Positions 36,329 to 55,862 of a stretch of 64,000 nt of DNA are shown here, piece by piece. Each line of letters opens with the position of its first letter. Position 1 is the stretch's first letter. A program made the translations under genes and the position numbers. Source of the stretch: Pseudooceanicola algae (GTDB taxonomy: Bacteria > Pseudomonadota > Alphaproteobacteria > Rhodobacterales > Rhodobacteraceae); contig NZ_CP060436.1 in the NCBI RefSeq assembly GCF_003590145.2, positions 1,770,001 through 1,834,000 of the forward strand, written 5' to 3'. The notes beneath the pieces are model-generated. The model worked only from the letters and a program-made list of their open reading frames with translations, was not told the DNA's origin and searched no databases.

Positions 36329-36757
36329 TTACGCCCGGGGCTGGGCCAGGTCGCTGTCGGACAGATGCGCCACGGTTTCGCCCGTCGCGGCAAAGGTGCG
36401 GGTGACCGCGCCAGAGGCATAGATGAACATCATCAGGACCGGTTCCGAGCCGACGTTATGGAAGCAATGCACCGTGCCCTCGGGGATGAAGGCGACCTCC
36501 ATCGGACCGACGGGATGGCGCGCGCCGTCGAATTCCGCTTCGGCCTGCCCTTCCAGTATGATGATCTGTTCGTCGCAATTGTGACTGTGCATCTGGACCG
36601 AGCGCCCGACAGGCAGCGTCGTGGTGCCGGTGGTGACATCCGCCTCACAGCGCCCTTTCGAGCAGAACAGCCGCGTGGTGACGCCATTGCCCCGGTCATG
36701 AGCGGGGATATCGGGCGTGTTGAAGATGCGGGCGGTCTTGGTGTTGGTCATGGTCAA
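36329..36757 (-). CDS. Small cupin-domain protein
   Basis: 142 aa single-domain cupin. Metal-ligand pattern: HSHNCDEQIIILEG (two His and a Glu) and PEGTVHCFHN (His). Many such proteins are metal-dependent dioxygenases, isomerases or ligand sensors; function is not readable. Its start overlaps the Ldh2 stop by 4 bp, so they are coupled and probably act on the same compound. Confidence 0.8.
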   Translation of the reverse strand: MTMTNTKTARIFNTPDIPAHDRGNGVTTRLFCSKGRCEADVTTGTTTLPVGRSVQMHSHNCDEQIIILEGQAEAEFDGARHPVGPMEVAFIPEGTVHCFHNVGSEPVLMMFIYASGAVTRTFAATGETVAHLSDSDLAQPRA

Positions 36758-37818
36758 AGCTCCAGCGTCGCAAGGCCGGCGTCCTGCGCGACCTGGTTCA
36801 GGGATTTCAGCAAGACGGGCGGACAGGGAATGCCATTGGCCCGCCGGTCACTGCGCAGCGCCAGCGCCCGGTCTCCGGGCAGGCGGATCGCGTCGAAGTC
36901 GGGCCGGGTGGCCGAGGTCGTCAGCTCGGTCCGGATCTGGTCGACTTGGCGCTTGAAAAGCTCCGGCGCGCCAAGGGCCTTGAGGTCGATTACAAGGATC
37001 GACTGGCCCGTGTTCGTCGGGGTCACGTCGTCGGCGTTGAAATCCACCAGATCCCGGCCAAGCGCCGCGCCGTTCAGCGTGCCCGCCAGCAGACCGATCA
37101 TCAACGCCAGCCCATAGCCTTTCGGCCCGCCGATGGGCAGCAGTGTCCCTGTCCCCGATTGCGCCGGATCGGTCAGCGGCTTGCCTTCCGCGTCGATCAT
37201 CCAGCCTTCGGGCAGGTCCTGCCCAAGGGCGGCGGCCATCTTGATCTTGCCATAGGCGGCGTTGGTCGTCGCCATGTCCAGCAGGACAGGCCCGCCTTCG
37301 CCGCCGGGCACGCCGATGGCGATGGGGTTTGTGGACAGCAGGGCCTCGGTTCCGCCCCAGGGGGCCATGTGATTGGCGCTGCCGACAGCCATGTAGATGC
37401 CGATCATGTCCTGCGGCACCGGGCGCATGGCCCAGACCCCGGCGGCCCCGGCATGGTTGGAATTGTGGCACCCGACCCAGGAAACCCCGTGATCAGAGGC
37501 GCGCGCGATGGCCTCGTCCACGCAGCGGCGCACCACCAGATGCCCCATGGCGGAATCGCCATCCACGCGGGCCAGCCCGCCCTTGCTGCGGTCGACCCGG
37601 ATGTCGGGCGTCCGGTTGAAACCACCGGCCTTCAGACGGTCGATATAGCGGGCAAGGCGAAACAATCCGTGGGCGTCGGCTCCGTGCAGATCGGCCTCGA
37701 TCATCATTTCAGCAACCACCTCGGCATCTGCCTGCGGCAAGCCATGACGCGCCAGAGCAGAAGCGACGAAGGGCTGAAGAACCGAAAGCGGCAGCCTTGG
37801 AACGTCGGGTGAGGTCAT
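36754..37818 (-). CDS. Ldh2-family (malate/L-lactate-type) NAD(P)-dependent dehydrogenase
   Basis: 354 aa, family of YlbC, ComC (sulfolactate) and 2,3-diketogulonate reductase, unrelated to classical LDH. Conserved regions: VAEMMIEADLHGADAHGLFR, SNHAGAAGVWAMR, ANHMAPWGGTEALLSTNPIA and GGPKGYGLALMIGLLAG. It oxidises or reduces a 2-hydroxy/2-keto acid. A GntR-type palindrome lies 30 bp upstream of its start. Sulfolactate is one possible substrate in a taurine-using organism, but nothing here decides it. Confidence 0.87.
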   Translation of the reverse strand: MTSPDVPRLPLSVLQPFVASALARHGLPQADAEVVAEMMIEADLHGADAHGLFRLARYIDRLKAGGFNRTPDIRVDRSKGGLARVDGDSAMGHLVVRRCVDEAIARASDHGVSWVGCHNSNHAGAAGVWAMRPVPQDMIGIYMAVGSANHMAPWGGTEALLSTNPIAIGVPGGEGGPVLLDMATTNAAYGKIKMAAALGQDLPEGWMIDAEGKPLTDPAQSGTGTLLPIGGPKGYGLALMIGLLAGTLNGAALGRDLVDFNADDVTPTNTGQSILVIDLKALGAPELFKRQVDQIRTELTTSATRPDFDAIRLPGDRALALRSDRRANGIPCPPVLLKSLNQVAQDAGLATLEL

Positions 37819-40229: not shown

Positions 40230-41192
40230 ATGAAGCTTCAGCAATTGCGTTATTTCGTTGCGGTCTTCGAGCAGGGCTCGTTTTCGGCGGCCGCCGAGAA
40301 GGTCAATGCAACCCAGTCCGGTCTGTCCATGCATGTGGGCCAGATCGAAAAGCGCTATGGCGTGGTGCTGTTTTCGCGCAGTTCCTCCGGTGTCAGCCCG
40401 ACCGAAGCCGGGCGGTCCTTCTACCGCGAAGCCGTGAAGGTCCTTGCGGCGGCCTACCGCGCAGAGGATCGCATCCGGTCGCTTTCCAAATCCGTGACCG
40501 GGCATATCCGGGTCGGCCTGATGCCCACCTTTACCCGCGCGGTGCTGACCCCTGCCCTGCTGGAATTCGCAGAGGAATATCCCGAGGTTCGCCTGTCGAT
40601 CTCGGAAGCCTATTCCGGGGCGCTGGCCAATGACGTGACCGAAGGGCGTCTCGATTTCGCGGTTGTCCCGGCCTCCTTTGACTTAGGCGAAATGCTGGTG
40701 GCGACGCCGATGGGTCAGGATCGGGAATGCCTGGTCTGCGCTGCCGGGCGCGAATTCCCCACCACGCCGGATGGCGTGCGCCTGCGGGATCTGCCGCCGC
40801 AGAAATTCGTCCTTCCCGGCCAGGGCAATGCGCGGCGCCATCGGATCGACGCCTACCTTGGCCAGAACCAGATCGAGGTGCTGGAACGCCTGCAACTGGA
40901 CACGATGCACGGCACGCTCGGGCTGGTGGGGCAGTCGGACTGGGTGTCCATCCTGCCCGGTATCCTTTGCCTGCCCGATCTGGACGGCACGCGCCGCCGC
41001 GTCGTGCCGCTGGCCGATCCCGCCCTCACGGTGGATTATCTGCAGATCGAACACGCCTCGCGTCCGCTGAGCCAGGGCGCACAGGCCTTTGCCGACATCC
41101 TGCAGAAGGAACTGACCCGCGCGCTCGGGGTCGCGCCTGTCAGCCGGAACCCCGACCGGTCCGCCCTGCGCAGTATCGTCGCCACGGCCTGA
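40230..41192 (+). CDS. LysR-family transcriptional regulator
   Basis: 320 aa. HTH at residues 1-60 (MKLQQLRYFVAVFEQGSFSA, VNATQSGLSMHVGQIEKRYG) and an effector domain thereafter. The gap to the divergent flavin reductase contains the AT-rich ATTAATATTAG (near 40184-40194), a plausible LysR site. It likely activates the reductase-BKACE pair in response to a pathway intermediate. Confidence 0.87.
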   Translation: MKLQQLRYFVAVFEQGSFSAAAEKVNATQSGLSMHVGQIEKRYGVVLFSRSSSGVSPTEAGRSFYREAVKVLAAAYRAEDRIRSLSKSVTGHIRVGLMPTFTRAVLTPALLEFAEEYPEVRLSISEAYSGALANDVTEGRLDFAVVPASFDLGEMLVATPMGQDRECLVCAAGREFPTTPDGVRLRDLPPQKFVLPGQGNARRHRIDAYLGQNQIEVLERLQLDTMHGTLGLVGQSDWVSILPGILCLPDLDGTRRRVVPLADPALTVDYLQIEHASRPLSQGAQAFADILQKELTRALGVAPVSRNPDRSALRSIVATA

Positions 41193-41491
41193 GCCGAGCT
41201 GACCGCCCATGGGGGAGATGCCTTTGGCGCCGCCTCACCGGATCTGGATGGCAACGGGCGAAGGCCATCAGTAAATCTGATAGGCGCTGAAATTTTTAAT
41301 CATTTCTTTTATGCCCCGTCGGGCGTTAGCGTTTTCTTAGGGAACGCCGAAACCCTTGCTAAGCAATTGATCTGCAAAGACGTCACCGCGATGCGCGCGC
41401 CACGTCGTACCACAGCGGATCATGACCGCGGCCAGGGGCGTTGCACGGGTTCGGACCGCGGGCCCGGTTGCCATTGATTACGGGAATGCAC
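41193..41491 (+). other. Intergenic region with AT-rich segment and weak hairpin
   Basis: 299 bp between the LysR gene and the hydrolase gene. At 41287-41340 it is AT-rich (AAATTTTTAATCATTTC) and has GCCC-CGTC-GGGC (41313-41324) followed by a T-containing tail, either a weak terminator for lysR or a leader structure. No gene is supported. Confidence 0.4.
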
Positions 41492-42274
41492 ATGACTTCT
41501 ATCCAACTTCACTCCTCCGTTCATGGGGCGGCCGATGCGCCCGTCCTGCTGCTGCTCAACAGTCTCGGCGCGACGGAGGCCATGTGGGAGGCGCAGATCC
41601 CGCTGCTGAGCGGCCATTACCGGGTCATCACTTGCGACACGCGCGGCCACGGTCAAAGCCCGGCCCCCGAAGGCCCCTATGCCTTTTCCGATTTCGTCGA
41701 TGACGCGCTGGCGGTGCTGGATGCCCATGGGGTTGAAAAGGCCTCTGTCCTGGGTCTGTCGCTTGGCGGGATGACCGCCCTTGGTCTGGGCCTGAACCAC
41801 CCCGACCGGATCGAACGGATCGTCTGCTGTGCGGCGCGTTCCGACGCGCCAGAGCCTTTCGTGCAAAGCTGGCACACCCGGCTGGCCAAGCTGGACGAAG
41901 GCGGCGTCGAAGCGGTCTGGAACGGCACCGTCGGCTTCTGGCTGAGCGAAGAAACCCGCGCCGCCCACCCCGAGCGCGAAGCGGCGCTGCGCGACGGCTT
42001 CCTGCGCACCTCGCCCACCGGCTATCGCGGCTGCGCCCATGCGCTGATGGAACTCGATTACCTGCGCCACCTCGGCAAGATGACCGTGCCCGCGCTGTTC
42101 GTTTCCGGAGAGAACGACGGCGGCGCCTCCCCTGCAACGATGGAAGAAATGGCCGCCGCCTGCCCCGGATCGCAATATGCCTGCGTCAGCGGCGCCAAGC
42201 ACGTCATCAACGTTGACCGGCCGCAGGACTTCGCCCTCGCGATCGGTGGCTTCCTCGAACTGGATACCGAGTAA
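41492..42274 (+). CDS. Alpha/beta hydrolase, 3-oxoadipate enol-lactonase (PcaD)-like
   Basis: 260 aa from the ATG at 41492 (CGGGA upstream); the in-frame ATG at 41486 would add only two residues. The nucleophile is in GLSLGGM (residue about 93), the catalytic His in GAKHVINVDRP near the end, and the N-terminal LNSLGATEAMWEAQIPLL is typical of PcaD. It probably opens a lactone ring, as PcaD does in the protocatechuate branch. No other pca genes are present, so the real substrate may be a different lactone. Confidence 0.8.
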   Translation: MTSIQLHSSVHGAADAPVLLLLNSLGATEAMWEAQIPLLSGHYRVITCDTRGHGQSPAPEGPYAFSDFVDDALAVLDAHGVEKASVLGLSLGGMTALGLGLNHPDRIERIVCCAARSDAPEPFVQSWHTRLAKLDEGGVEAVWNGTVGFWLSEETRAAHPEREAALRDGFLRTSPTGYRGCAHALMELDYLRHLGKMTVPALFVSGENDGGASPATMEEMAAACPGSQYACVSGAKHVINVDRPQDFALAIGGFLELDTE

Positions 42275-42377: not shown

Positions 42378-43274
42378 TTGATCGGACATATGCTTCCGAT
42401 CCTGGGACCAATAGGAATATTGGTCCTGATCGGCTACGCGATGGGACGCGGCGCCACGGGGCTGGACACCCGGACGCTCAGCACGGTCGTCGTGATGGTG
42501 GCAGCGCCCGCGCTGATCTTCAGCAGCCTGACTTCGTTGGAGATCACACCGCAGGCGGTGGTGGCAATCTCGGGCGCGGCGGCGCTGTGTCTGGCAATCT
42601 CGGCCCTTCTGGCCGCTTTGGTCCTGAAACTGACGGGCGGGTCCCTGCGCAGCTTTCTTCCGGTGCTCATGATGCCCAATTCGGGCAACATGGGACTGCC
42701 CCTGGTCATGCTGGCTTTCGGGGACGCGGGACGGGAGCTTGCCGCGGCCTATTTCGTCGTCGTCGCCCTGGCCCAGCATTCCATCGGCATGTCGATCTAT
42801 GCGGGCAGTTTCAAGGTCGGCACCCTGCTGCGTCAGCCGCTGATCTATTCGGTCCTGCTGGTCGTGCTGGTGCTGACGACGGGGATAGACGTGCCCCCCG
42901 TCATTGCCACGACGGCCGAGATGACCGGCGGCATGATGGTCCCCGCCATGCTGCTGTTGCTTGGTACATCGCTGGCGCGGCTGCGGGTGGCGGATCTGAA
43001 ATCAGCCGTCGTCCTGGCCTTCGGGCGGCTGGCGATCGGGGTGATCTCGGCCATCTGCGTGATCTGGATTCTCGGGCTCGAGGGGATGCCCGCGGGCGTC
43101 GTTTTCCTGATGGCGACCATGCCGACGGCCATCGTAATCTACGTTTTCTCGGAACGGTACAACCGCGATCCCGAACGCGTGGTCGGTGTCGTCGTGGTTT
43201 CAACCCTGCTGACCTTTGCCTGCCTGCCCGGCCTGACCTGGATTGCGCTCAGGATGGCGGGCGTCGCCTCCTAG
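42378..43274 (+). CDS. AEC-family (auxin efflux carrier-like) transporter
   Basis: 298 aa with about ten transmembrane segments and the AEC pattern: GYAMGRGATGLDTRTLSTVV, LMMPNSGNMGLPLVMLAFGD, and ATMPTAIVIYVFSERYN. Members carry malate, malonate or other organic acids. It follows the hydrolase by 103 bp, perhaps in one transcript, and may exchange a pathway acid. No ribosome site stands out before the ATG. Confidence 0.85.
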   Translation: MIGHMLPILGPIGILVLIGYAMGRGATGLDTRTLSTVVVMVAAPALIFSSLTSLEITPQAVVAISGAAALCLAISALLAALVLKLTGGSLRSFLPVLMMPNSGNMGLPLVMLAFGDAGRELAAAYFVVVALAQHSIGMSIYAGSFKVGTLLRQPLIYSVLLVVLVLTTGIDVPPVIATTAEMTGGMMVPAMLLLLGTSLARLRVADLKSAVVLAFGRLAIGVISAICVIWILGLEGMPAGVVFLMATMPTAIVIYVFSERYNRDPERVVGVVVVSTLLTFACLPGLTWIALRMAGVAS

Positions 43275-44669: not shown

Positions 44670-44724
44670 TTGCCCCCGGCCCGGGTTGCGATGGCCGCCC
44701 GGGCGCATTCCCTGCTTCAACTAA

Positions 44725-44739
44725 CCAGCCGAAGGCTGG
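44725..44739 (+). terminator. Intercistronic hairpin after tctC system A
   Basis: CCAGCC-GAA-GGCTGG, a perfect 6-bp stem with a GAA loop, lies between the TctC gene and TctB and ends 17 bp before the TctB start codon. It also lies just upstream of the TctB ribosome site CGGAGGTG. It probably tunes the ratio of binding protein to permease. Confidence 0.55.
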
Positions 44740-44756
44740 CACCGGAGGTGCCATTC

Positions 44757-45323
44757 ATGACTTCCCCTGTTTCGGACGACATCAAGTTCGAAGGCGAGGA
44801 CGCGAACGCGGGCGACGCCGCCCCGATCCTCGACATCATCGCGGCCGGAGCCCTGATCGCCACGGCCATCGTGGTCATGGTGGCCTCCCTGCGTCTTCCC
44901 GTACCGGGATCTGCGCTGACCGCGCCGGGGTTGCTGCCCTTCATGGCTGCGGCATCGCTGGCGGTCATGGCAATCGTGCTGGGGCATTCGGCAATCCAGC
45001 GCCGGCGCGTGACCGGCGCGTCTTCGGAACAGCTTTTCGGTGATCTCGAAGAACAGATGCGGATGCTGGTGCTGGCCGGGATGGTCGGGGCCTACATCCT
45101 TGCGCTGCAGCTTCTGGCCTTTCAGGTCTATTTCGACATCGCTGGTATCCCCTTCGTCTTTTCGGCCTTCCAGCCCGTCAGCTTCATCGCGCTTGCCGCC
45201 ATCATGCATGTCTTCTGGCGCGGCCCCCTGTGGACCAAGGCGGCGATTTCCGCCGGATGGACCCTGGCGCTGACACTGACCTTCCAGAAACTCTTCAACA
45301 TTCCACTGCCGGGCGGATTCTGA
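44757..45323 (+). CDS. TTT transporter small membrane subunit (TctB family), system A
   Basis: 188 aa, four predicted helices, TctB family (LPVPGSALTAPGLLPFMAAA, then LGHSAIQRRR). CGGAGGTG lies upstream of the ATG at 44757. It is needed for assembly and function of TctA but its exact role is unknown. It is followed by tctA after 3 bp. Confidence 0.85.
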   Translation: MTSPVSDDIKFEGEDANAGDAAPILDIIAAGALIATAIVVMVASLRLPVPGSALTAPGLLPFMAAASLAVMAIVLGHSAIQRRRVTGASSEQLFGDLEEQMRMLVLAGMVGAYILALQLLAFQVYFDIAGIPFVFSAFQPVSFIALAAIMHVFWRGPLWTKAAISAGWTLALTLTFQKLFNIPLPGGF

Positions 45324-45326
45324 GCC

Positions 45327-46826
45327 ATGATTGACGCATTCCTCCAACTCATGTCTCCGATGCTGCTGATCATGACGCTTGCCGGGGTGTCGCTCGGCAT
45401 CATCTGGGGCGCCCTGCCGGGGCTGTCGACGACCATGGCCATGGGCCTGCTGATCGGCCTCTCCGCGGGCATGTCGCAGGACCTGGCCATCTGCTTCATG
45501 ATCGGCGTCTATACCGGTTCGGTCTTCGGTGGCGCGATCTCGGCCATCCTGATCAACATCCCCGGCACCCCCGACGCGGTGCCCACGATGATCGAAGGCC
45601 ACCAGTTGGCGCAACGCGGCGAAGGCGGCCAGGCGCTTGGCATGTCGATCACCGCCTCCTTCATCGGCGGGACCCTGGGCATCCTGCTGCTGGTCCTGTT
45701 CATTCCGCTGATCCTCAGCTTCGCCCTGAACTTCCGCTCGTGGGAGATGTTCTGGCTGGCCGTCATCGGCATCATGGTCTCGGGCTCCATGGCCTCGGGC
45801 GAGATGCCCCTGAAGGGCTGGATCGCGGGCTGGATCGGTATCCTGATCGCCCTTGTCGGCCTGGACGAGATCCACGCGGTGCCGCGTTTCACCTTCGGCA
45901 GCTTCATGCTGTTCGACGGCATCAGCTATGTCGCCATCCTGATCGGCCTCTTCGGCTTTGCCGAGATCCTGCGCACCCTGCCCTCGCGCTCGGCCCCCAC
46001 CATCCCCAGCAAGGTCGGCCGGGTCTTTCCGCCGCTGCGCCAACTGCTGCGCTTCACCCCCGCCGCGACCCGGTCGGGCATCCTGGGCGCGCTTATCGGG
46101 GCCGTGCCGGGTGCGGGCGCCAACGTGGCCTCCTTTCTTGCCTATGACATCGGCCGCCGCCGTGCCTCGCCCGAGGAACAGGCGAAATGGGGCAAGGGCA
46201 GCTATCAGGCGCTGGTCTGCGCGGAAACATCGAACAATGCCAATATCGGCGGGTCGATGCTGCCCACGCTGGCGCTCGGCATTCCGGGCAACGCGGCTGC
46301 TGCCGCGCTGCTGGCTGCGCTGACGCTGAAGAATGTCAGCGTCGGGCCGACCATCCAGATCGACCACCCCGGCCTGATCTACTTCATCTACGGCGCGCTG
46401 CTGCTGGCCAACATGATGATGTTCGGCGCCGCCTTTGCCCTGATCAAGCCCTGCGTCAAGCTGTTCAGCCTGCCGCGCGGCGTGCTGATGCCGCTGATCA
46501 TCCCGGTCTGCATCATCGGCGCATGGTCGGTGAAGCTGTCGATGTTCGATGTCTGGATCATGTTCGGCGCCGGTATCTTCGGCGTGCTGCTCAGCATCTT
46601 CCGCTTCCCGGTCGCCCCGATCGTGCTGGGTGTCATCCTGGCCCCGCTTGCGGACGAGAACCTGCGCCGCGCGCTGCTGGTCTTCGAGGACAAGAGCCTG
46701 GGCTTCGTGATGTCGCAATGGATCGGGACGGTCCTGATGCTGGCAGTGCTGTTCGTGGTGGTGGAAGGGATCCTGCGGGGTCTGCGCAGCCGCCGGGAAA
46801 AAACCGCTGCCCTTGCGGCGGAATGA
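45327..46826 (+). CDS. TTT transporter large permease subunit (TctA family), system A
   Basis: 499 aa, the standard TctA length, about twelve helices. Signatures: GALPGLSTTMAMGLLIGLSA, INIPGTPDAVPTMIEGHQLA, GAVPGAGANVASFLAYDIGR and NANIGGSMLPTLALGIPGNA. It is a proton- or sodium-driven carrier for the TctC ligand. Its stop overlaps the Gfo/Idh start by 4 bp, so transport and catabolic genes are translated in series. Confidence 0.92.
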   Translation: MIDAFLQLMSPMLLIMTLAGVSLGIIWGALPGLSTTMAMGLLIGLSAGMSQDLAICFMIGVYTGSVFGGAISAILINIPGTPDAVPTMIEGHQLAQRGEGGQALGMSITASFIGGTLGILLLVLFIPLILSFALNFRSWEMFWLAVIGIMVSGSMASGEMPLKGWIAGWIGILIALVGLDEIHAVPRFTFGSFMLFDGISYVAILIGLFGFAEILRTLPSRSAPTIPSKVGRVFPPLRQLLRFTPAATRSGILGALIGAVPGAGANVASFLAYDIGRRRASPEEQAKWGKGSYQALVCAETSNNANIGGSMLPTLALGIPGNAAAAALLAALTLKNVSVGPTIQIDHPGLIYFIYGALLLANMMMFGAAFALIKPCVKLFSLPRGVLMPLIIPVCIIGAWSVKLSMFDVWIMFGAGIFGVLLSIFRFPVAPIVLGVILAPLADENLRRALLVFEDKSLGFVMSQWIGTVLMLAVLFVVVEGILRGLRSRREKTAALAAE

Positions 46827-47980
46827 CGATGAAAGAGGAAAAGAGCGAGATGACTAAGGACAAACAACAGGTCGGCCTGGCAATCGTGGGCTGCGGCACC
46901 ATCGGACGGATCCGTGCGGAACTGGCGCGCGCCTTCCCCGGTATCGGCTGGATCGGCCTTTGCGACATCAAGTCCGACATCGGCCACAAGCTGGCCGAGG
47001 ATGTGCAGGCCGATTTCTACACCGACGATTACCGCGAACTTCTGAACCGCCCCGAGGTCACCGCGACGATCATCGCCACGGACGAGAACTTTCACTTCGA
47101 TCCCACCATGCTGGCCATCGAGAACGGTCATGCGCTGTTCATCGAAAAGCCGCTGGCCACCGATGCGCGCCAGTCGGCCCAGATCCTTGCCGCGATCGAA
47201 GAAAACGGCATCGACGCGGTCGTTGGCTATACCCAGCGGTTCCGCCGCCGGTTCCTGGCGATCAAGGAACGTCTTGTCACCGGCCAGATCGGCGATGTGC
47301 ATTCCGTCGTCACCCGCGCCTTCATGAACCGCATGGTTCCCATCGCCACGACGCAGCGCACCCAGGAACGTGCCACGCTGACGCCGATGGTGGTTTCGGG
47401 GACCCACAGCCTCGACATGTCGATGTGGCTGATGGAGGGCAAGAAACCCGTCTCGGTCTTTGCGCAGTCCTGCGACAAGGTGCTCAGCGCCCATGGCACC
47501 AAGGACAGCACCTTCGGCGTCTTCACCATGGAAGACGGCACGATCTGGTCGATGAACATCAGCTGGGCCCTGCCCGAGGTCTGGCCCGGCGCCGTCTACG
47601 GCATCGAGATCGGGATTGTCGGCACCGAAGGCGTCATCGACATCGAGGACACGCACCGCGATCTGGTCATGGCGACCAATGTGGCGCAGGGCGGCGGCTA
47701 TGTGCCCGATGGCTATACGCCCCCGGCGCGGCACGTCGATTTCCTGACCTCCTACCCGCCGGGCGATCTGCATGACGGTCAGCTTTGGGGTCCGATGCGC
47801 GAGGAAACCAACAGCTGGTTCCAGCGCGTCTATGCCGGGATGCGCACGCCGCATGCCACCGCCGCCGACGGCCATCGCAACCTGATGATGACCATGGCGA
47901 TGGACCTTTCGGCCAAGCGCGGCGTGCCCGTTGCCCTGCCCGTCGACCCCGACGAGCTGATGCGCGAGCTGGTCGGATGA
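46823..47980 (+). CDS. Gfo/Idh/MocA-family NAD(P)-dependent oxidoreductase
   Basis: 385 aa from the ATG overlapping the tctA stop; ATGs at 46829 and 46850 are alternatives, the last giving 376 aa and a typical short N terminus. Rossmann motif VGLAIVGCGTIGRI, catalytic EKPLAT (Lys-Pro pair) and GTHSLDMSMWL are seen. It oxidises a hydroxyl on a sugar, cyclitol or hydroxylated ring acid; the family includes phthalate dihydrodiol and myo-inositol dehydrogenases. Located between TTT permease and a DctP-like gene, it is likely the first step on the imported compound. Confidence 0.87.
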   Translation: MTMKEEKSEMTKDKQQVGLAIVGCGTIGRIRAELARAFPGIGWIGLCDIKSDIGHKLAEDVQADFYTDDYRELLNRPEVTATIIATDENFHFDPTMLAIENGHALFIEKPLATDARQSAQILAAIEENGIDAVVGYTQRFRRRFLAIKERLVTGQIGDVHSVVTRAFMNRMVPIATTQRTQERATLTPMVVSGTHSLDMSMWLMEGKKPVSVFAQSCDKVLSAHGTKDSTFGVFTMEDGTIWSMNISWALPEVWPGAVYGIEIGIVGTEGVIDIEDTHRDLVMATNVAQGGGYVPDGYTPPARHVDFLTSYPPGDLHDGQLWGPMREETNSWFQRVYAGMRTPHATAADGHRNLMMTMAMDLSAKRGVPVALPVDPDELMRELVG

Positions 47981-48915
47981 GCGCGCTCCATCGCATCACC
48001 TTCGGCGGCTACCAGGGGCCGGCCTCCGTGCATACGCGCGGGGCCGAGGCCTTTGCCGCGGCCCTGTCGCGCCTGACCGATGGCCGCGCCGAGGTCGTGC
48101 TGCGCCCCAACATCACCACCGAGGGGCGCAAGGCCGCCGATCTTCTCGACATGGTCGAGCAGGGAGAGATCGACGGCTGCTACTTCTCGTCAAGCTACAT
48201 GGCGGGGCGCGTGGCCTCGCTGGCCTTGTTCGACATGCCCTTCGCCGCGCCGGAACGCGAGACGCTGTTTGCCAAGCTCGACGGCGCGCTCGGGGACCAA
48301 ATCGCCGAAGACGTGGCGCGCCAGACCGGCTTTGCCGTCCTGGGGTTCTGGGACAACGGCCTGCGCCATGTCTCGGGGCCGCGCGCGCTGAACGGGCCCG
48401 GGGACTGCGCGGGGCTGAGCCTGCGGACCCTCGCCAGCGAAGACCACCAGCGCGCCTTCCGCGCCCTCGGCTTTGATCCGCGCGTGATCGATGTCAAGGA
48501 CCTGGCCACCGCGGTCGAGGCCGGAGAGGTCGATGCCCAGGAAAACCCGCTGACCAATATCTACAATTTCGGCCTGCATCGCGCGCAGCCCGAGATCACG
48601 CTGACCGGCCACCTGCAGGGCGTCGCCCCGGTCTGGTTCCATCGCGCCACGGTCGAAAGCTGGCCCGAGGACCTGCACCGCGCCATCCGCGCCGCCATGG
48701 CCGAGGCCGGCCTTGCGCAACGCGGTTTCGCCAAGGCCGATGACAGCGGGTGCACCGACGCCCTGCTGGCCGACGGCTGCCGGTTGCACAGCCTGTCCGC
48801 CGATCAGCAAGCCGCCTTCCGGGACGCCGTCGCCGCCGAAAATGCCCGCACGCGGGACCGGATCGACCGCGCAGCCCTGGACCTTTTCGAACAGCCTCAG
48901 GAGATCACGGCATGA
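47977..48915 (+). CDS. DctP-fold TRAP-type binding protein without signal peptide
   Basis: 312 aa. The start ATG overlaps the preceding stop and the protein opens MSALHRITFGGYQGPASVHT, with no Sec or Tat leader; upstream in-frame codons are Arg-rich shadow of the Gfo/Idh gene, so no leader is hidden there. The DctP fold is clear (LGFWDNGLRHVSGPRAL, then CAGLSLRTLASEDHQRAFRA and DAQENPLTNIYNF). No TRAP permease is adjacent; it lies between two TTT permease sets. I infer a cytoplasmic ligand-binding or sensing role, or an enzyme chaperone. A misplaced secreted protein is less likely. Confidence 0.8.
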   Translation: MSALHRITFGGYQGPASVHTRGAEAFAAALSRLTDGRAEVVLRPNITTEGRKAADLLDMVEQGEIDGCYFSSSYMAGRVASLALFDMPFAAPERETLFAKLDGALGDQIAEDVARQTGFAVLGFWDNGLRHVSGPRALNGPGDCAGLSLRTLASEDHQRAFRALGFDPRVIDVKDLATAVEAGEVDAQENPLTNIYNFGLHRAQPEITLTGHLQGVAPVWFHRATVESWPEDLHRAIRAAMAEAGLAQRGFAKADDSGCTDALLADGCRLHSLSADQQAAFRDAVAAENARTRDRIDRAALDLFEQPQEITA

Positions 48916-49484
48916 CGCCCGACCAAACCGCTTCCAACGATCCGCATTCCGCGCATCGATCTCCCAACAACGGCAGGGGCAGGTTCCGCAGCCCCGAGAC
49001 GCTGACCATGGCCGCCCTGCTCATCGCCTCGGTACTCTCGATCCTGTTTCTGGGCGCGCTGGTGGCCGAACCCAAGGCGCTGTTCGGACGGTCGCTGTCG
49101 GCCATTGCGCCCAGCCTGTTCCCCACAATCGTCCTGACGGCGCTGGCCGTGCTCAGCGCGCTTGCGCTCTACGCGAACCTGCGCGGGATCGCCCCCGAAG
49201 AAGACGCGCCCATGACCCGGGACCAATGGATCCGGGCGGCGACCCTGTTCGGCATCATGCTGCTTTACGCGATGATCCTGACGCCCTTCGGGTTTCTGAT
49301 CTCGACGATCATCGCCGTGGCGCTGATTTCCATGCTGATGGGCGCGACCTCGGTGACGCAGATCACGCTGGTCTCGGTCATCGGGCCCGTGCTGCTTTAC
49401 CTTGCCGCGACCCGTTTGCTGGCCGTTTCCCTGCCGGAACTCGACCAGGTCGAGGCCCTTTATTCCCTGGTCCCCGGTCTCTGA
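48912..49484 (+). CDS. TTT transporter small membrane subunit (TctB family), system B
   Basis: 190 aa with four hydrophobic helices and a polar N terminus (residues 1-35). It overlaps the DctP-like gene by 4 bp. Sequence is clearly different from the TctB of system A, so it is a second transporter and not a recent duplicate. Its partner TctA follows 51 bp later. Confidence 0.8.
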   Translation: MTPDQTASNDPHSAHRSPNNGRGRFRSPETLTMAALLIASVLSILFLGALVAEPKALFGRSLSAIAPSLFPTIVLTALAVLSALALYANLRGIAPEEDAPMTRDQWIRAATLFGIMLLYAMILTPFGFLISTIIAVALISMLMGATSVTQITLVSVIGPVLLYLAATRLLAVSLPELDQVEALYSLVPGL

Positions 49485-49535: not shown

Positions 49536-51035
49536 ATGATCGAACAATTCACCCAAGGCTTCGCGATGGCGATGCGCCTTGACACCGTAACGATGATGAG
49601 CTTCGGCTTGTTTGCCGGCATGCTGGTCGGCGCGCTGCCCGGTTTCACCACGCTGATGGCGATGGCGATCCTGCTGCCGATCTCCTTCTTCCTTGATCCC
49701 ATCGTGGGCATCCCCTTCCTGCTGGGGATCTACAAGGGCGGGATCTTCGGCGGCAGCGTCCCGGCGATCCTGATCTCGATGCCCGGCACCGGGGCCTCGG
49801 TCGCGACCTCACGGGACGGCTACAAGCTGACCCAGAAGGGCCAGTCGCGAAAGGCGCTGGACATGGCGCTGGTCGCCTCCGTCATCGGCGATACGGCCAG
49901 CGACATCTTCACCATCGCGATGATCTTTCCCATCGCCTTCCTCGTCATGCAATTCGGCCCGCCCGAGCTGTTCGCCGTCCTTCTGATGAGCCTTGTGGTA
50001 ATCTCCGCCACCTCGGGTGCGAACCCGCTCAAGAGCCTCATGATGATCATGCTCGGTCTCTGGCTGTCCTTCATCGGCACCGATCCCCTGGGCGGCGTCG
50101 AGCGGTTCACCTTCGGCTCCTTCGATCTGAAATCGGGTATTCCACTGCTGCCGATGCTGATCGGTGTCTTTGCCCTGCCCGAAGTGGCCTCGGTCGTGAT
50201 CCGCAACGAGAAGGCGCGCAAGCTGACCTCGCTTGTCGGTGAACGGATGAACTGGCCGGACCTGCGCCGCTGCCTGCCCACCATCGGCCGGTCGACCGTG
50301 ATCGGGACCGCCGTCGGGATCGTGCCCGGCCTTGGTCAGATCGTGGCGGCCATGATGGGCTATTCCGCGGCCAAGAATGCCTCCAAGCATCCCGAAACCT
50401 TCGGTGAAGGCGAACTGGAAGGCGTCGCCGCCGCCGAGGCCGCCAACAACGCGGTCAACGGCCCGACCATGGTGCCCCTGCTGACCCTCGGCATCCCGGG
50501 TGACAACGTCACGGCGATCCTGCTGGGCGCCTTTGTCGCGCAGGGCCTGCGCCCCGGCCCGCAACTGTTCGAGGAACAGGGTGCCACGGTCTTTGCCATC
50601 CTCGTGGCCATGGTCATCGCCAACCTGCTGTTCCTGGTGATCGGCTACCTGTCGATCCCGTTCTTCTCGAAGCTGGTGACGATCAAGACCTCGGTCCTTA
50701 TTCCGCTGGTGATCATGTTCGCCTTCGCGGGGACCTACGTCTATCGCTCCGACCCCGTCGACCTGCTGATGCTGGTGGTCTTCGGTATCTTCGGGATCAT
50801 CGCCCGTGCCGCAAGGTTCGACGTGATGCCGATGGTGATGGGCTTCATCCTCGGGCCATCGATGGAATACGCCTTCGGCCAGACCATGGCGATGGCCGGT
50901 GGCGATGCCACAGGATTTTTCCTGACCGAACGTATCGGTGCACTCTGCATCCTGCTTGCGACACCGGTGATCGGCTTCCTGCTCTGGAAGCGGCTGAACG
51001 CCAAGTCTGCCTCGATCGGCGCCCCGGGACATTAG
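49536..51035 (+). CDS. TTT transporter large permease subunit (TctA family), system B
   Basis: 499 aa. GALPGFTTLMAMAILLPISF, ISMPGTGASVATSRDGYKLT, GIVPGLGQIVAAMMGYSAAK and GPTMVPLLTLGIPGDNVTAI are the TctA hallmarks. GAGGCTCGC precedes the ATG. The system B order is B-A-C, opposite to the C-B-A order of system A. Substrate unknown. Confidence 0.9.
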   Translation: MIEQFTQGFAMAMRLDTVTMMSFGLFAGMLVGALPGFTTLMAMAILLPISFFLDPIVGIPFLLGIYKGGIFGGSVPAILISMPGTGASVATSRDGYKLTQKGQSRKALDMALVASVIGDTASDIFTIAMIFPIAFLVMQFGPPELFAVLLMSLVVISATSGANPLKSLMMIMLGLWLSFIGTDPLGGVERFTFGSFDLKSGIPLLPMLIGVFALPEVASVVIRNEKARKLTSLVGERMNWPDLRRCLPTIGRSTVIGTAVGIVPGLGQIVAAMMGYSAAKNASKHPETFGEGELEGVAAAEAANNAVNGPTMVPLLTLGIPGDNVTAILLGAFVAQGLRPGPQLFEEQGATVFAILVAMVIANLLFLVIGYLSIPFFSKLVTIKTSVLIPLVIMFAFAGTYVYRSDPVDLLMLVVFGIFGIIARAARFDVMPMVMGFILGPSMEYAFGQTMAMAGGDATGFFLTERIGALCILLATPVIGFLLWKRLNAKSASIGAPGH

Positions 51036-51137: not shown

Positions 51138-52109
51138 ATGATGAAGAAAACCTTGAAGGCATCGCTGACAGCCTGCGCGCTGGCGGCGGCGGCCCTGACC
51201 GGGACCACCGGCAGCGCTCTGGCCGAATACCCCGAAAAGCCGGTGACCATGGTGATCCCGCTTGGCGCGGGCGGATCGCACGACCTGAATGCACGGGTCA
51301 TCACGTCGATCCTGCCGAACTACCTGGACCAGTCGGTGATCGTCCAGCTGACGCCGGGTGCCGGCGGCCAGAAGGGCACGCAGGAGGTCGCACGGGCCAA
51401 GCCCGACGGCTACAAGTTGCTGTTCACGCACAACTACATCGACATGCTGCAGCAATACGTCGAGAACCTGCCCTACGATCCGCTCGAAGACTTCGTGACG
51501 GTGGCACGGGTGAACTATGCGCCGACCTCGGTCATCGTGCCTGCCGACAGCCCCTACGAGACCTTCCAGGATCTCGTTGACGACGCGAAAGCCAATCCCG
51601 GCAAGATCCAGATGGCCCATTCGGGCAACTGGGGCGCCTTCTTCGTGCCGACCGCGCAAATGATGCAGAAGCTCGACATCTCGCTGAACCTCGTGCCCTA
51701 CCAAGGGGGCGGCCCGGCTCTGCAGGCGCTGCTGTCCGGGGATGCGGATGTGACCATGGCCTTCCCTTCGGCCCTTGGTGAAATGCTGCGTGCAGGCGAA
51801 ATCCGCGTTCTGGCCACAGCGGGTGACAAGCGGATCTATGACGACGTCCCGACCTTCGCCGAAGTGGGCGTTGATGGCGACATCGGCTTCATGCACCGCT
51901 TCGTGCTGGCACCGAAAGACACCCCGCAGGACGTGATCGACACCCTGGCCGCAGCCTTCGAAAAGACTTTCGAGGACCCGACCTTCAACACGCTGATGGG
52001 GCGTCTGGGCGAAAGCGTCGACCCGATGAGCGGTCCCGAGTACGAGAAACTGCGCGCAGGTCAGGCCGAGGCCTACGAGAACCTGGTCTCCGATCTGACC
52101 TCTCAATAA
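51138..52109 (+). CDS. TTT transporter binding protein (TctC family), system B
   Basis: 323 aa with a Sec signal ending SALA-EYP (residue about 29). The TctC/Bug fold is shown by KPVTMVIPLGAGGSHDLNAR, TPGAGGQKGTQEVARAKPDG and VPYQGGGPALQALLSGDADV. GGGAGGAC precedes the ATG. It is of normal length, about 47 residues shorter than the system A protein. Confidence 0.9.
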   Translation: MMKKTLKASLTACALAAAALTGTTGSALAEYPEKPVTMVIPLGAGGSHDLNARVITSILPNYLDQSVIVQLTPGAGGQKGTQEVARAKPDGYKLLFTHNYIDMLQQYVENLPYDPLEDFVTVARVNYAPTSVIVPADSPYETFQDLVDDAKANPGKIQMAHSGNWGAFFVPTAQMMQKLDISLNLVPYQGGGPALQALLSGDADVTMAFPSALGEMLRAGEIRVLATAGDKRIYDDVPTFAEVGVDGDIGFMHRFVLAPKDTPQDVIDTLAAAFEKTFEDPTFNTLMGRLGESVDPMSGPEYEKLRAGQAEAYENLVSDLTSQ

Positions 52110-52197: not shown

Positions 52198-52248
52198 TAG
52201 CGCGCCCGTGCGACATCACGGGACCAGATGGAAGAGCCGGGAAAGCAG

Positions 52249-52926
52249 ATGAGCGACAAGATCTTGACGAGGGCCCGCAGCTGGATAGTGAATTCGGGTC
52301 TCGCCGAAGGCGACCGCCTGCCCCCGGAACGTTCGCTGTGCACCCAGTTGGGCATGACCCGGTCCGAACTGCGCAAATCGCTGCTGTTGCTGGAAGCCGA
52401 AGGGCTTCTGTCGCGTCACGTCGGGCGCGGCACCTACCTTGCCAAGCTCCCCAAGACCGCCGGAAATGCCGGGATCGAAACGGCGATCTCCGCCCTGTCG
52501 CAGACCACGGGCCCGGTCGATTCCATGTCGGCACGTCAGGCCCTTGAACCGGAGCTTGCCGCCCTTGCCGCGTTGCATGCCACGCCGGCGCAACTGCGCG
52601 AATTGCGCCGTCTGTGTCAGGCGATGCCCGTGGCCAGCAGTTGGGCGCGTTACGAACAACTGGACAGCCGGTTTCACGAAACCATCGCCGAAGCCTCGGG
52701 GAATACCCTCTTGCAGGCCATGCACCGCATCGTGAACGGGGTCCGCCTGGTGGTCGTCTGGCGACAGCTCGACACCCCCGACAGCGGACCGGAATCCCAT
52801 TACCATTCGTTTGACGAACATCAGGCCATCCTTGCCGGGATCGAGAGGCGCAAGCCCGACGAGGCCCGACAGGCAATGTACGCACATCTGAATTCGACGC
52901 TGCAGACGATGCTGGCCCGCCGCTGA
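52249..52926 (+). CDS. GntR-family regulator, FadR/FCD type
   Basis: 225 aa from the ATG at 52249 (GGGAAAG upstream; an ATG at 52228 adds seven residues). Winged helix at residues about 5-65 (GDRLPPERSLCTQLGMTRSE), FCD ligand domain at about 90-215 with metal-type residues in DSRFHETIAEASGN and FDEHQAILAGI. FCD regulators sense small carboxylates. It lies between the TTT block and the dehydrogenase block and probably controls both. Confidence 0.87.
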   Translation: MSDKILTRARSWIVNSGLAEGDRLPPERSLCTQLGMTRSELRKSLLLLEAEGLLSRHVGRGTYLAKLPKTAGNAGIETAISALSQTTGPVDSMSARQALEPELAALAALHATPAQLRELRRLCQAMPVASSWARYEQLDSRFHETIAEASGNTLLQAMHRIVNGVRLVVVWRQLDTPDSGPESHYHSFDEHQAILAGIERRKPDEARQAMYAHLNSTLQTMLARR

Positions 52927-53057: not shown

Positions 53058-54131
53058 ATGCGACAGGTCGAAGTGGCTGTCATCGGAACAGGCTGGTGCG
53101 GCGGTATGCGCGCGGAATCGCTGGCGAAATCGGCGCTGGTCGACAAATTGCACATCTGCGAGATCAACCCCGAGCGCCTGGCAGAAGTCGCGGCGCTGAC
53201 CAAGCCCGCATCCACGACGGAAGATTACCAGGACATCGTGGCGAATGACGCGATCGAAGTGGTCTATATTTCGACCACGCCGGAACCGACCCACTACCCC
53301 ATCGCGCGCGATTGCCTGAAGGCAGGCAAGCATGTGCTGCTGGAAAAACCCATCGCCATGGACCTGGCCGAAGCCGACGATCTGATCAACATCGCCAAGT
53401 CGCAGGGCGTGAAGTTCACCATCGGCTATTCGCAGCGCTTCAACCCCAAGATCGCCTATGCCCGCAAGGCCATTGCCGAGGGCAAGCTGGGCAAGGTCGT
53501 CAGCGTCATGGTCTCGCGCCACCTGTCGCGCAGCCTCGGGACGCGGATCGCCAACCGGGTCAAGCTGTCTCCGGCGGCGATGGAAAGCACCCATGACCTC
53601 GATTTCGTCTTCTGGCTGCTGGCCCCGGCCAAGCCCGAAAAGATCTATTCGCAGGGCGCCTATGGTTTCATGAAGGAACTCAACGGCTCCTACGATTGCA
53701 TGTGGAACACCGTCAACATGAGCGACGGCAGCCTTGTGGTGATCGGGGGCGGATGGAACCTGCCGCCGAGCTACCCCAACTACTGCGCCACCTGGATCGA
53801 GATCACCGGCACCGAAGGGTCTCTGGTTCTGGACGACACCGCACGAGATCACTGGCTGAACACCGTCGAGGGTGGCACGCAGTTCCCCATGTCGACCATG
53901 CCGGGTGAACACCTGGATCACGTGTATGCCGGTCAGATGGGGCCGGAAACACTGCATTTCCTTGAATCCGTCCTGCTGGACCGCGCCCCGCTGGTGGCGC
54001 CGGAACATGCGCGGATGGTGATGGAAAGCTACCTTGGCGCCGATATCTCGGCCGCCACGGGCGAGGTCGTCGGGCTGCCGCTGTCCAACAGCTCCATGGC
54101 GACATTGGCCGACCTCAAAGCAGCCGAATGA
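53058..54131 (+). CDS. Gfo/Idh/MocA-family NAD(P)-dependent oxidoreductase
   Basis: 357 aa. EVAVIGTGWCGGMRAESLAK opens the Rossmann fold and the EKPIAMDLAEADDL motif carries the catalytic Lys-Pro; STHDLDFVFWLL is the conserved helix with the His. GAGGAGAG precedes the ATG. It overlaps the next dehydrogenase by 4 bp. It is a different member from the one at 46823, so two hydroxyl oxidations, or two substrates, are served. Confidence 0.87.
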   Translation: MRQVEVAVIGTGWCGGMRAESLAKSALVDKLHICEINPERLAEVAALTKPASTTEDYQDIVANDAIEVVYISTTPEPTHYPIARDCLKAGKHVLLEKPIAMDLAEADDLINIAKSQGVKFTIGYSQRFNPKIAYARKAIAEGKLGKVVSVMVSRHLSRSLGTRIANRVKLSPAAMESTHDLDFVFWLLAPAKPEKIYSQGAYGFMKELNGSYDCMWNTVNMSDGSLVVIGGGWNLPPSYPNYCATWIEITGTEGSLVLDDTARDHWLNTVEGGTQFPMSTMPGEHLDHVYAGQMGPETLHFLESVLLDRAPLVAPEHARMVMESYLGADISAATGEVVGLPLSNSSMATLADLKAAE

Positions 54132-54994
54132 TCACCTGTAGCGTCATTGGTCTGGGTCAGATGGGGCGGGGCATTGCGCGCCGCCTCGATCAGGCAGGGC
54201 TGCTTGTGGCCGCCTTCGACGCCAGCCCGCAGGCGATGGCCGGCGCCGGGCTTTCGCAGGCGGTTCACGAGGACGCGCTGGCCGCCGATGTGGTGCTTTT
54301 CGTCGTGCCGAGCACGGCACAGATCGCCGACAAGCTGGCCGATGCCCCGCTTCGGGATGGTCAGGTGATCGTCGATCTGACCACATCGCATCCCGATGAC
54401 AGTGCGGCCCTTGCGGCGCGCATCGCGTCGCAGGGCTGCGCCTATGTCGATGCGGCGATGACCGGCGGCGCGGCGGGGGCGGATGCGGGCAAGCTGACCC
54501 TGATGATGGGCGGCGAGGCACAGGTTATCGACAGGATCGCCCCGGCGCTGGACCAGATTGCGCAACAGCGGTTCCACATGGGGCCGGTGGGGGCGGGCCA
54601 TTCCATGAAGCTGGTCCACAACCTGATCCTGCACAGCGCGTTCATGGCGACCTGCGAGGGGCTGACCCTGGCGCAAAAGGCCGGGCTGGACGTGGACAGC
54701 GCGGTCGAGGTGCTGAACGCCGGCAACGCCCGCAGCTTCGTGACCGAGGTCCGCTTTCCCCGCGATATCCTGAGCGGCACGATGAACGCGCGTTCCCGGA
54801 TCGCCAACCTGGAAAAGGACCTGGCGCTGGCCAGCCGCTTTGCCGAGGCCATGAATGGTCCTGCGGGCTATACCGACCTGACCCATCGCCTGCTGGCGCT
54901 TGCCGTGGCGCGGGGTGAGGGCGAGACGGATTTCTCTCATCTCTTCGAAATGGCCGGTTCCCTGATGGCCGGGGTCGACAATGCCGACAGCTAG
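54128..54994 (+). CDS. Beta-hydroxyacid dehydrogenase (3-hydroxyisobutyrate dehydrogenase family), copy 1
   Basis: 288 aa. N-terminal VIGLGQMGRGIARRL and the catalytic lysine in GAGHSMKLVHNL (residue about 161) define the family; the TGGAAGADAGKLTLMMGG substrate loop is normal. It oxidises a 3-hydroxy acid to the aldehyde or keto acid, or reduces a 2-oxo-3-hydroxy compound such as tartronate semialdehyde. It overlaps its neighbours on both sides (4 and 14 bp). Confidence 0.87.
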   Translation: MITCSVIGLGQMGRGIARRLDQAGLLVAAFDASPQAMAGAGLSQAVHEDALAADVVLFVVPSTAQIADKLADAPLRDGQVIVDLTTSHPDDSAALAARIASQGCAYVDAAMTGGAAGADAGKLTLMMGGEAQVIDRIAPALDQIAQQRFHMGPVGAGHSMKLVHNLILHSAFMATCEGLTLAQKAGLDVDSAVEVLNAGNARSFVTEVRFPRDILSGTMNARSRIANLEKDLALASRFAEAMNGPAGYTDLTHRLLALAVARGEGETDFSHLFEMAGSLMAGVDNADS

Positions 54995-55862
54995 GCCAGA
55001 GATCGGCGTCTTCGGCCTTGGCCTGATCGGGTCGGCGCTGTCGGGGCGGTTGCTGAGCGGCGGTTATACCCTGCGCGGCTTTGACCCCGACGGGCAGCGC
55101 CGGGCGGATTTCGCCGCCCTTGGCGGCACGGCCTGCCCCCCCGAAGAGGTCTGGCAGGCCGAGGTCGTCTTTTCCTGCGTCTTCGACACCGACCAGCTTG
55201 CCGTGCTGATCGACGCGGCCCCGCCCGGGCCACGCATCCTGATTTCCGTCAGCACCTGTGATCCCGACCGCATGGCCGATCTGGCCCAAGCGGCTGCCGG
55301 AAAACACATCACGCTGATCGAATCCCCGCTGTCCGGCACCTCGCGTGCGCTGGCGAAAGGCGCCGTCCTGCTGCTGGTCAGCGGGGACACGGCCAGCGCC
55401 GCGCGCCTCGCCCCCGTCTTCGAACGCCTGTCACACCGGCATATCCACGTCGGCGCCATCGGCAACGGCAACCGGGCCAAGCTGGCGATCAACCTCGTGC
55501 TTGGCCTGAACCGCGCGGCCCTGGCCGAAGGCATGGTCTTTGCCAGCGCGCTCGGCCTTGCGCCGCAGGATTTCCTCGACATGGCGCGGGCCTCGGCGGC
55601 GCATTCGGACGTGATGGAGGCCAAGGGCGATCTGATGGTCGCGCAGGATTTCACGCCGCAGGGGCGCATCGCGCAATCCTTCAAGGATTTCTCCCTGATC
55701 GAGGACCGCGCCGCCGCCGAAGGCCAGGGCTTGCCATTCACCGCCACCTATCTTGAGATGATGCGCGACGCTCTGGACCGTGATGAGGGGGATCTGGACA
55801 ATGCCGCCGTCCTCTTGCCGATCAAACGCAGCCGCCCCCGCGACGCGGCGGGCAAACCCTAA
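54981..55862 (+). CDS. Beta-hydroxyacid dehydrogenase family, copy 2
   Basis: 293 aa. GVFGLGLIGSALSGRLL-like start (FGLGLIGSALSGRLLSGGYT), substrate loop ESPLSGTSRALAKGAVLLL and catalytic lysine in GNGNRAKLAINL. It overlaps copy 1 by 14 bp but the two proteins differ strongly, so they are not recent duplicates. Two such enzymes side by side may handle two stereoisomers or act in sequence. Confidence 0.85.
   Translation: MPTARPEIGVFGLGLIGSALSGRLLSGGYTLRGFDPDGQRRADFAALGGTACPPEEVWQAEVVFSCVFDTDQLAVLIDAAPPGPRILISVSTCDPDRMADLAQAAAGKHITLIESPLSGTSRALAKGAVLLLVSGDTASAARLAPVFERLSHRHIHVGAIGNGNRAKLAINLVLGLNRAALAEGMVFASALGLAPQDFLDMARASAAHSDVMEAKGDLMVAQDFTPQGRIAQSFKDFSLIEDRAAAEGQGLPFTATYLEMMRDALDRDEGDLDNAAVLLPIKRSRPRDAAGKP

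Follow-up and report, generated by a model that had tools for sequence, protein, structure and literature searches.

A leaderless DctP-fold protein of Pseudooceanicola algae belongs to a multi-phylum group of probably cytoplasmic relatives of TRAP binding proteins

Gene organization and domain content of the locus

The window analyzed here is a stretch of 64,000 nucleotides from Pseudooceanicola algae (contig NZ_CP060436.1, positions 1,770,001 to 1,834,000; coordinates below are those of the window). Its forward-strand ORF at 47977–48915 encodes a complete DctP fold in a protein of 312 amino acids without a leader. Genes at the locus run in the order LysR, alpha/beta hydrolase, Mem_trans, TctC-TctB-TctA, Gfo/Idh, leaderless DctP, TctB-TctA-TctC, GntR/FCD, Gfo/Idh, two beta-hydroxyacid dehydrogenases, and GST. 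The DctP ATG at 47977 overlaps the stop codon of the upstream Gfo/Idh gene as ATGA, and the DctP stop codon overlaps the TctB ATG at 48912, likewise as ATGA. The features of the window to which we refer are as follows:

36329–36757, minus strand: Cupin_2 protein, of the family of the cupin that adjoins or is fused to leaderless DctP elsewhere
36754–37818, minus strand: Ldh_2 dehydrogenase, partner of the cupin (PF02615)
40230–41192, plus strand: LysR regulator (Pfam)
41441–42274, plus strand: alpha/beta hydrolase (PF00561)
42378–43274, plus strand: Mem_trans-family membrane transporter (PF03547), upstream; by synteny, a homolog cluster occupies the same position in L021–L023
43503–44669, plus strand: TctC of the first TTT transporter (PF03401, 120.6 bits)
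44670–45323, plus strand: TctB of the first TTT transporter (PF07331, 33.7 bits)
45327–46826, plus strand: TctA of the first TTT transporter (PF01970, 418.4 bits)
46859–47980, plus strand: Gfo/Idh/MocA dehydrogenase, upstream and ATGA-coupled (PF01408, PF22725); start codon unsettled, with 46859 marking the stretch tested
47977–48915, plus strand: DctP-fold protein without a leader, 312 amino acids (Pfam PF03480, structure model)
48912–49484, plus strand: TctB of the second TTT transporter, downstream and ATGA-coupled (PF07331, 57.8 bits)
49536–51035, plus strand: TctA of the second TTT transporter (PF01970, 438.9 bits)
51138–52109, plus strand: TctC, binding protein of the second TTT transporter (PF03401, 169.3 bits)
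52228–52926, plus strand: GntR/FCD regulator (Pfam)
53058–54131, plus strand: second Gfo/Idh dehydrogenase (Pfam)
54128–54994, plus strand: beta-hydroxyacid dehydrogenase (3-hydroxyisobutyrate / L-threonate dehydrogenase superfamily), below every NCBIfam cut-off
54981–55862, plus strand: second beta-hydroxyacid dehydrogenase, below every NCBIfam cut-off

The Pfam DctP family (PF03480) matches the protein at 185.4 bits, against a gathering score of 23.4, and covers model positions 2–277 of 286; this match begins at residue 10, indicating that the protein starts where a mature binding protein would start. PF03480 is the sole Pfam match at E 0.001, and the TctC family (PF03401) does not match. 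Among NCBIfam models, the protein falls under the cut-off of the TIGR00787 dctP subfamily (137.7 bits; cut-off 175) and passes that of the broader NF037995 TRAP_S1 (118.8; cut-off 50). Its structure model (pLDDT 95.7) adopts the TRAP binding-protein fold, with TM of 0.89 to 4ovs and 0.91 to 7bbr; the nearest solved TRAP binding proteins (PF03480) are 4p9k/4pak (Veis_3954), 4xeq, 4p47, 4pdh, 4pdd, 4ovs, and 7bbr. The Pfam score, the model, and both ATGA overlaps thus bear out an earlier note on this DNA, which described a full DctP fold coupled to Gfo/Idh and TctB and proposed structure prediction as a check. That note also saw no adjacent TRAP permease, and this holds: no DctM lies within 6 kb of the locus, and the nearest one found downstream (58811–60196, minus strand) is ~10 kb off, with another DctP beside it.

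Distribution and phylogeny of the leaderless family

We counted 59 loci of a leaderless family to which this gene belongs: 31 from a scan of a genome collection, 15 and 12 from further genome searches, and the P. algae locus itself. The scan returned 35 related loci, consisting of the 31 members and 4 ordinary DctPs, while the further searches each used a separate cut-off and scored only the best candidates per genome. The bacterial family of P. algae (295 genomes) yielded seven matches, its own included, and its class (385 genomes) yielded 8 (its own, 4 more with members of the leaderless family, and 3 with outside relatives); among 398 genomes of the phylum, searched at E 1e-75, its own genome was the only match. 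Similarly, 9 of 247 genomes in the class of an Acidimicrobiaceae genome matched, that genome included, as did 2 of 50 genomes in its family, both already known. The small number of matches across these searches shows that the leaderless family is sparse. A plasmid collection returned no match at E 1e-40, and matches in a viral structure library were limited to one short phage fragment resembling DctP and distant ones resembling TTT binding proteins.

Family loci score 306–455 bits against the family profile. In 12 genomes chosen for holding members, 19 proteins score 332.7–454.3 bits and the next scores 181.6; the top outsider in any genome met reaches 241 bits and carries a leader. The tyrosine of an N-terminal GGY motif is present in 58/59 members, the exception being L051, which is broken there. 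The N-terminal stretch of this gene (L051:7893–8831) appears frame-shifted as compared with its relatives.

In a tree of the 59 members and 23 ordinary DctPs, the members all fall on one side of a single branch, with support of 100/99 and a long stem. The tree is unrooted, and its ordinary set comprises 23 rows on long branches, 19 of them from one genome; if, as we assume, the root lies outside the members, the 59 would constitute a clade. Members were named from Alpha- and Betaproteobacteria (Pseudomonadota), Nitrospinota, Tectomicrobia, and Actinomycetota, with those outside Pseudomonadota represented by MAGs. Two genomes (G395 and G500) each contain three leaderless paralogs, in differing neighborhoods.

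The P. algae genome contains 20 DctP matches, and all 20 neighborhoods (~10.9 kb each) were compared. The 19 other, ordinary DctPs served as controls, while the own-genome locus L100 was counted in the family and not among the controls. Two loci were dropped before counting (L078, which is locus L025, and L140 of G1259, which is cut at a contig end); short-flank loci L056–L062, L063–L067, L071–L076, and L113–L139 were superseded by, or identical to, longer stretches or loci counted, and L052–L055 and L068–L070 lie outside the family. Full 6-kb flanks are available for 40/59 loci and full 5-kb flanks for 42/59, with controls extending ~5.4 kb each way; absences reported below are lower bounds.

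Absence of a leader and cellular location

The in-frame sequence upstream of the P. algae ATG encodes no hydrophobic leader. The lack of a Sec or Tat leader, as first noted for this gene, is upheld and proves common to the 59-locus group across phyla: a crude leader scan was positive at 1/59 family loci (L039), as compared with 17/19 ordinary DctPs of the P. algae genome. We judge the L039 signal spurious; it depends on a TTG start located antisense to the beginning of a divergent tctC. The scan misses 2/19 controls, as well as 2/4 outside relatives (L053 and L054) with visible twin-arginine-like leaders, and leaders are visible by eye in the three top-scoring outsiders, L068–L070.

AGGAG-like sites precede some of the short starts (L035, L042, L044), and in the window locus and its close relatives the starts overlap upstream genes. 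A sequencing error hiding a leader was rejected, as the same short start is found in close and distant relatives. At 13/59 loci, the frame stays open upstream for at least 40 residues between the first possible start and the DctP domain; a leader or additional domain encoded there was considered and rejected. In the window and in L021–L023, the better-conserved gene is Gfo/Idh, in another frame; in L141, a gene on the opposite strand is 93–94% identical to L146/L147; and the opposite-strand tctC in L036 and L039, and a TAXI-TRAP permease gene in L089, are likewise better conserved than the candidate frame. This picture is weaker for L032, L042, and L043, and no homolog was found for the upstream extensions of L143 and L148. 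A conserved stretch in L036 and L039 lies in or around the spacer to the divergent tctC, just upstream of the DctP start; it may represent a regulator site or belong to the tctC start, and not to the DctP coding sequence.

Cysteine content also distinguishes the family, with a mean of 3.0 per domain and 0/59 members lacking cysteine, as compared with a mean of 0.63 in controls (domain start to stop), 11/19 of which have none (rank test p ~8e-9, with members treated as unrelated). The additional cysteines would fit a reducing compartment, without proving one. The two findings that the earlier note named as able to overturn its reading, leadered homologs in the same context and an upstream error whose correction restores a leader, were both looked for and failed to appear. 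From these sequences we infer a cytoplasmic location for the leaderless family, and the absence of leaders throughout a multi-phylum group supports the cytoplasmic reuse of the DctP fold that had been suggested for the single gene.

Association with transporter genes

DctM occurs within 6 kb of 3/59 family loci as compared with 19/19 controls, and the leaderless gene is the only DctP of its genome without one; together with the missing leader and extra cysteines, this sets the family apart from the DctP proteins of TRAP transporters. At the three exceptional loci, a TAXI gene (in L089 and L148) or a second DctP (in L151) likely provides the binding protein for the DctM there. By contrast, TctA and TctC occur within 6 kb of 16/59 and 22/59 family loci, respectively, and of 0/19 controls in each case, and all 16 TctA loci also hold TctC. 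The presence of TctC, TAXI, or a second DctP at these loci means that the nearby permeases each have another candidate binding protein. A role for the leaderless DctP as the TTT binding protein was rejected on these grounds, TctC being found at each TctA locus; the leaderless protein belongs to a different family from TctC (PF03401) and, with TctC present as a separate gene, is not its stand-in. A conserved double-TTT unit was also rejected, as two TctA genes occur within 6 kb at only 6/59 loci.

These counts bear on the proposal that the protein acts on the two TTT permeases of the window. Modulation of TTT (TctAB) permeases from the cytoplasm would accord with the translational coupling to tctB and with the frequency of TctA and TctC near family members as opposed to controls. 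However, TctA is missing within 6 kb at 43/59 loci, the nine Acidimicrobiia loci show none of TctA, TctB, TctC, DctM, and TAXI over the stretch examined, and three other members are instead near TRAP or TAXI-TRAP permeases. We consider such a modulator improbable, and a special role with the two TTT permeases finds no support in the form proposed.

It is also conceivable that a distant TRAP or TTT permease elsewhere in the genome is served by a protein that is still periplasmic and is exported by a route not visible in its sequence; the complete DctP fold and canonical carboxylate triad (described below) are as expected of such a binding protein. This scenario must be set against the lack of any convincing leader in 59 loci, the cysteine-rich domain, the overlap of starts with upstream genes in the window locus and close relatives, the TctC, TAXI, or second DctP already in place at every nearby TctA or DctM locus, and the DctM found beside all 19 other DctPs of the genome, and we regard it as very improbable. 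The leaderless DctP is very probably an acid-binding protein that resides in the cytoplasm and belongs to catabolic operons.

Association with dehydrogenase and cupin genes

Within 6 kb, Gfo/Idh genes are found at 26/59 family loci (1/19 controls), Ldh_2 and cupin genes at 17/59 each (1/19 each), beta-hydroxyacid dehydrogenases at 15/59 (2/19), SDR at 10/59 (3/19), and zinc ADH at 9/59 (1/19). One or more of five dehydrogenase families is encoded within 5 kb at 41/59 family loci and 6/19 controls; at 17/59 family loci, all five are absent within 6 kb. The co-occurrence that had been put forward as a check is thus conserved only in part, for TTT (TctA at 16/59) as for Gfo/Idh, and a special relationship with Gfo/Idh is unsupported in the form in which it was stated.

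Cupin and Ldh_2 genes occur together at 17/59 loci in two phyla, comprising 8 proteobacterial loci and 9/9 Acidimicrobiia, whose contexts may reflect shared ancestry and not independent cases. The recurrent cupin is ~135 amino acids long and carries a classic metal-type motif; its model (pLDDT 94.6) resembles small single-domain cupins, DddK and KdgF among them, and its nearest folds are auxin-binding protein, TM1459, DddK, and KdgF. In L049, a single ORF of 439 amino acids (L049:7986–9305) contains both DctP (residues 11–287) and Cupin_2 (348–416), with the Ldh_2 gene coming next and overlapping it by 4 bases; the cupin part shares 65–70% identity with the separate cupins of L142–L145. L049 alone of the 59 members (1 of 9 Acidimicrobiia) has at least 40 residues past the DctP domain. 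This fusion, observed in a single MAG, may reflect a stop codon lost in assembly; in the related L051, DctP and cupin are separate neighboring genes.

The P. algae genome has its own cupin-Ldh_2 pair (36329–37818, minus strand), located ~10 kb upstream of the leaderless gene and beside a leadered TRAP DctP (33498–34577, plus strand), which indicates that the pair does not need an adjoining leaderless protein. A UTRA regulator, a BKACE enzyme, and a flavin reductase are found further along near this pair. In yiaK-yiaL-yiaMNO operons, an Ldh_2 enzyme (YiaK) is likewise encoded near a DctP-type protein; there, unlike here, that protein (YiaO) is an exported binding protein of a TRAP transporter. 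The YiaK structure 1nxu emerged as a weak relative.

Two other groups of neighbors were observed. A family of ~250 amino acids (L033:7229–7972, L083:6486–7289; same cluster in L080, L085, L088, L090) is encoded directly upstream of leaderless DctP in L033, L085, L088, and L090 and one gene off in L083; two of its members had no Pfam match at E 0.001, and one had no PDB match. In L087 and L091, genes of a GMC oxidoreductase cluster (identified by Pfam in L091 only) lie between two Gfo/Idh genes on the opposite strand to the leaderless DctP, and another member of this cluster is nearby in L152.

Conserved residues of the binding pocket

Carboxylate in 4P47 is bound by Arg152, Arg173, and Asn213 (PMC11668362). 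When aligned to the family profile, these residues correspond to R130, R150, and N190 (pocket positions being placed by alignment and not from model coordinates), and all three are kept in 59/59 members. Of 6142 DctP proteins, 96.8% have an arginine at the R150 position, where it selects carboxylates (PMC4646407). Conservation of the triad weighs heavily against the idea that the gene is a decaying TRAP remnant, whose leader and permease were lost in this lineage: no permease adjoins it, in keeping with that idea, but the triad is invariant across 59 loci in several phyla that form one group in the tree, and we find the idea hardly credible.

Around this triad, the cleft differs from those of solved relatives. 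In the alignment, V173 takes the place of the 4P47 aromatic lid, Y196; position 173 is V, L, or A in 59/59 family members, as compared with F, W, or Y in 4p9k, 4xeq, 4p47, 4pdh, 4pdd, and 4ovs. Position 172 is D or E in 57/59 members as compared with A, G, or P in the same six structures, and Y69 is present in 59/59 members and 0/6 structures; these contrasts are with six solved relatives, the alignment of the 23 ordinary rows being loose (at least 7/23 aromatic at the lid column). Several other residues were rejected as new: N127 and H131 also occur in 4p9k, 4xeq, 4pdh, and 4pdd, Y12 in 4pdd, and N194 in 4p47 and 4ovs.

By its title, 7bbr is a sugar acid binder, and the solved relatives of the protein described in PMC11668362 (including 4P47, 4XEQ, and 7BBR) bind mostly pantoate or erythronate, with three sugar-acid binders among them. 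By analogy with these ligands, the ligand of the leaderless DctP is probably a hydroxy or sugar acid. Beyond PMC11668362, the literature searched for ligands, for precedents, and for the cupin/Ldh_2 pair offered no direct lead.

Possible functions of the leaderless DctP

The leaderless DctP retains the carboxylate-gripping triad (R130/R150/N190) in an altered cleft, in which V or L (173) replaces the aromatic lid and both the adjacent conserved acid (D/E172) and Y69 are new. Its gene is accompanied by genes for NAD(P)-dependent dehydrogenases and often by one for a metal-type cupin. The most likely step would be one in which the protein acts on the acid itself, by isomerization, epimerization, dehydration, or lysis, and this conversion would come before or after the step of the neighboring dehydrogenase. 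We tentatively favor this reading, at close to an even chance, in which a cytoplasmic enzyme evolved from a binding protein would act on the acid of the dehydrogenase pathway. The fuller version of it, that the group is an undescribed family of cytoplasmic enzymes on the DctP fold that works with a metal-type cupin and Ldh_2 or Gfo/Idh in a hydroxy- or sugar-acid pathway in at least four phyla, is possible but falls somewhat short of that.

MqnA, Thi5/NMT1, and 4,5-dihydroxyphthalate decarboxylase are cytoplasmic, leaderless enzymes derived from solute-binding proteins. To our knowledge, no enzyme evolved from a solute-binding protein is built on the DctP (TRAP) family. That binding proteins have become enzymes before, as in the evolution of cyclohexadienyl dehydratase from a solute-binding protein (PMC7683729), makes catalysis plausible; this enzyme and those named above resemble the leaderless DctP in reusing a binding-protein fold, though catalysis here is a proposal. 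Passages of a review of TRAP and TTT systems discuss orphan binding proteins and signaling roles and do not feature a cytoplasmic DctP (PMC5812351), nor was one found in open-licence literature among the matches listed.

The retained triad would also fit plain binding. Intact in 59/59 members within a TRAP binding-protein fold, and often encoded by a gene coupled to those of dehydrogenases, it is what might be expected of a cytoplasmic but non-catalytic protein, one that might buffer the ligand, pass the acid on to the dehydrogenase as a carrier, or report an intracellular acid as the partner of a sensor. However, the neighboring enzymes differ between loci, as do the regulators identified (LysR, GntR/FCD, GntR/UTRA, histidine kinase), such that no single conserved partner protein was found. 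Furthermore, at least 40 residues follow the DctP domain in only 1/59 members (as a cupin), and the longer upstream frames reveal no conserved added domain. A non-catalytic role is a serious alternative that we nonetheless hold to be somewhat doubtful. Of the sensor, carrier, or modulator roles initially proposed, the underlying cytoplasmic reuse of the fold is supported, while the TTT-modulator variant is not, given the 43/59 loci without TctA within 6 kb.

Catalysis is favored because the recurrent partners are enzymes, transporters vary or are unseen, no single conserved partner protein was found, and a new acid appears at the lid site. Counting against it are the variation in neighboring enzymes, the 17/59 loci at which all five dehydrogenase families are missing within 6 kb, and the P. 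algae cupin-Ldh_2 pair, which adjoins an ordinary DctP. We conclude that the leaderless group constitutes a branch of the TRAP binding-protein family that is probably cytoplasmic and would function in the catabolism of hydroxy acids or sugar acids.

By definition, a DctP protein is regarded as extracytoplasmic, and both PF03480 and NF037995 read the P. algae protein simply as a TRAP binding protein; the existence of a widespread leaderless group means that TRAP binding-protein names can mislead. The group offers a test case for a binding protein turning into something else, possibly an enzyme, and its recurrent cupin and Ldh_2 partners point to a concrete pathway.
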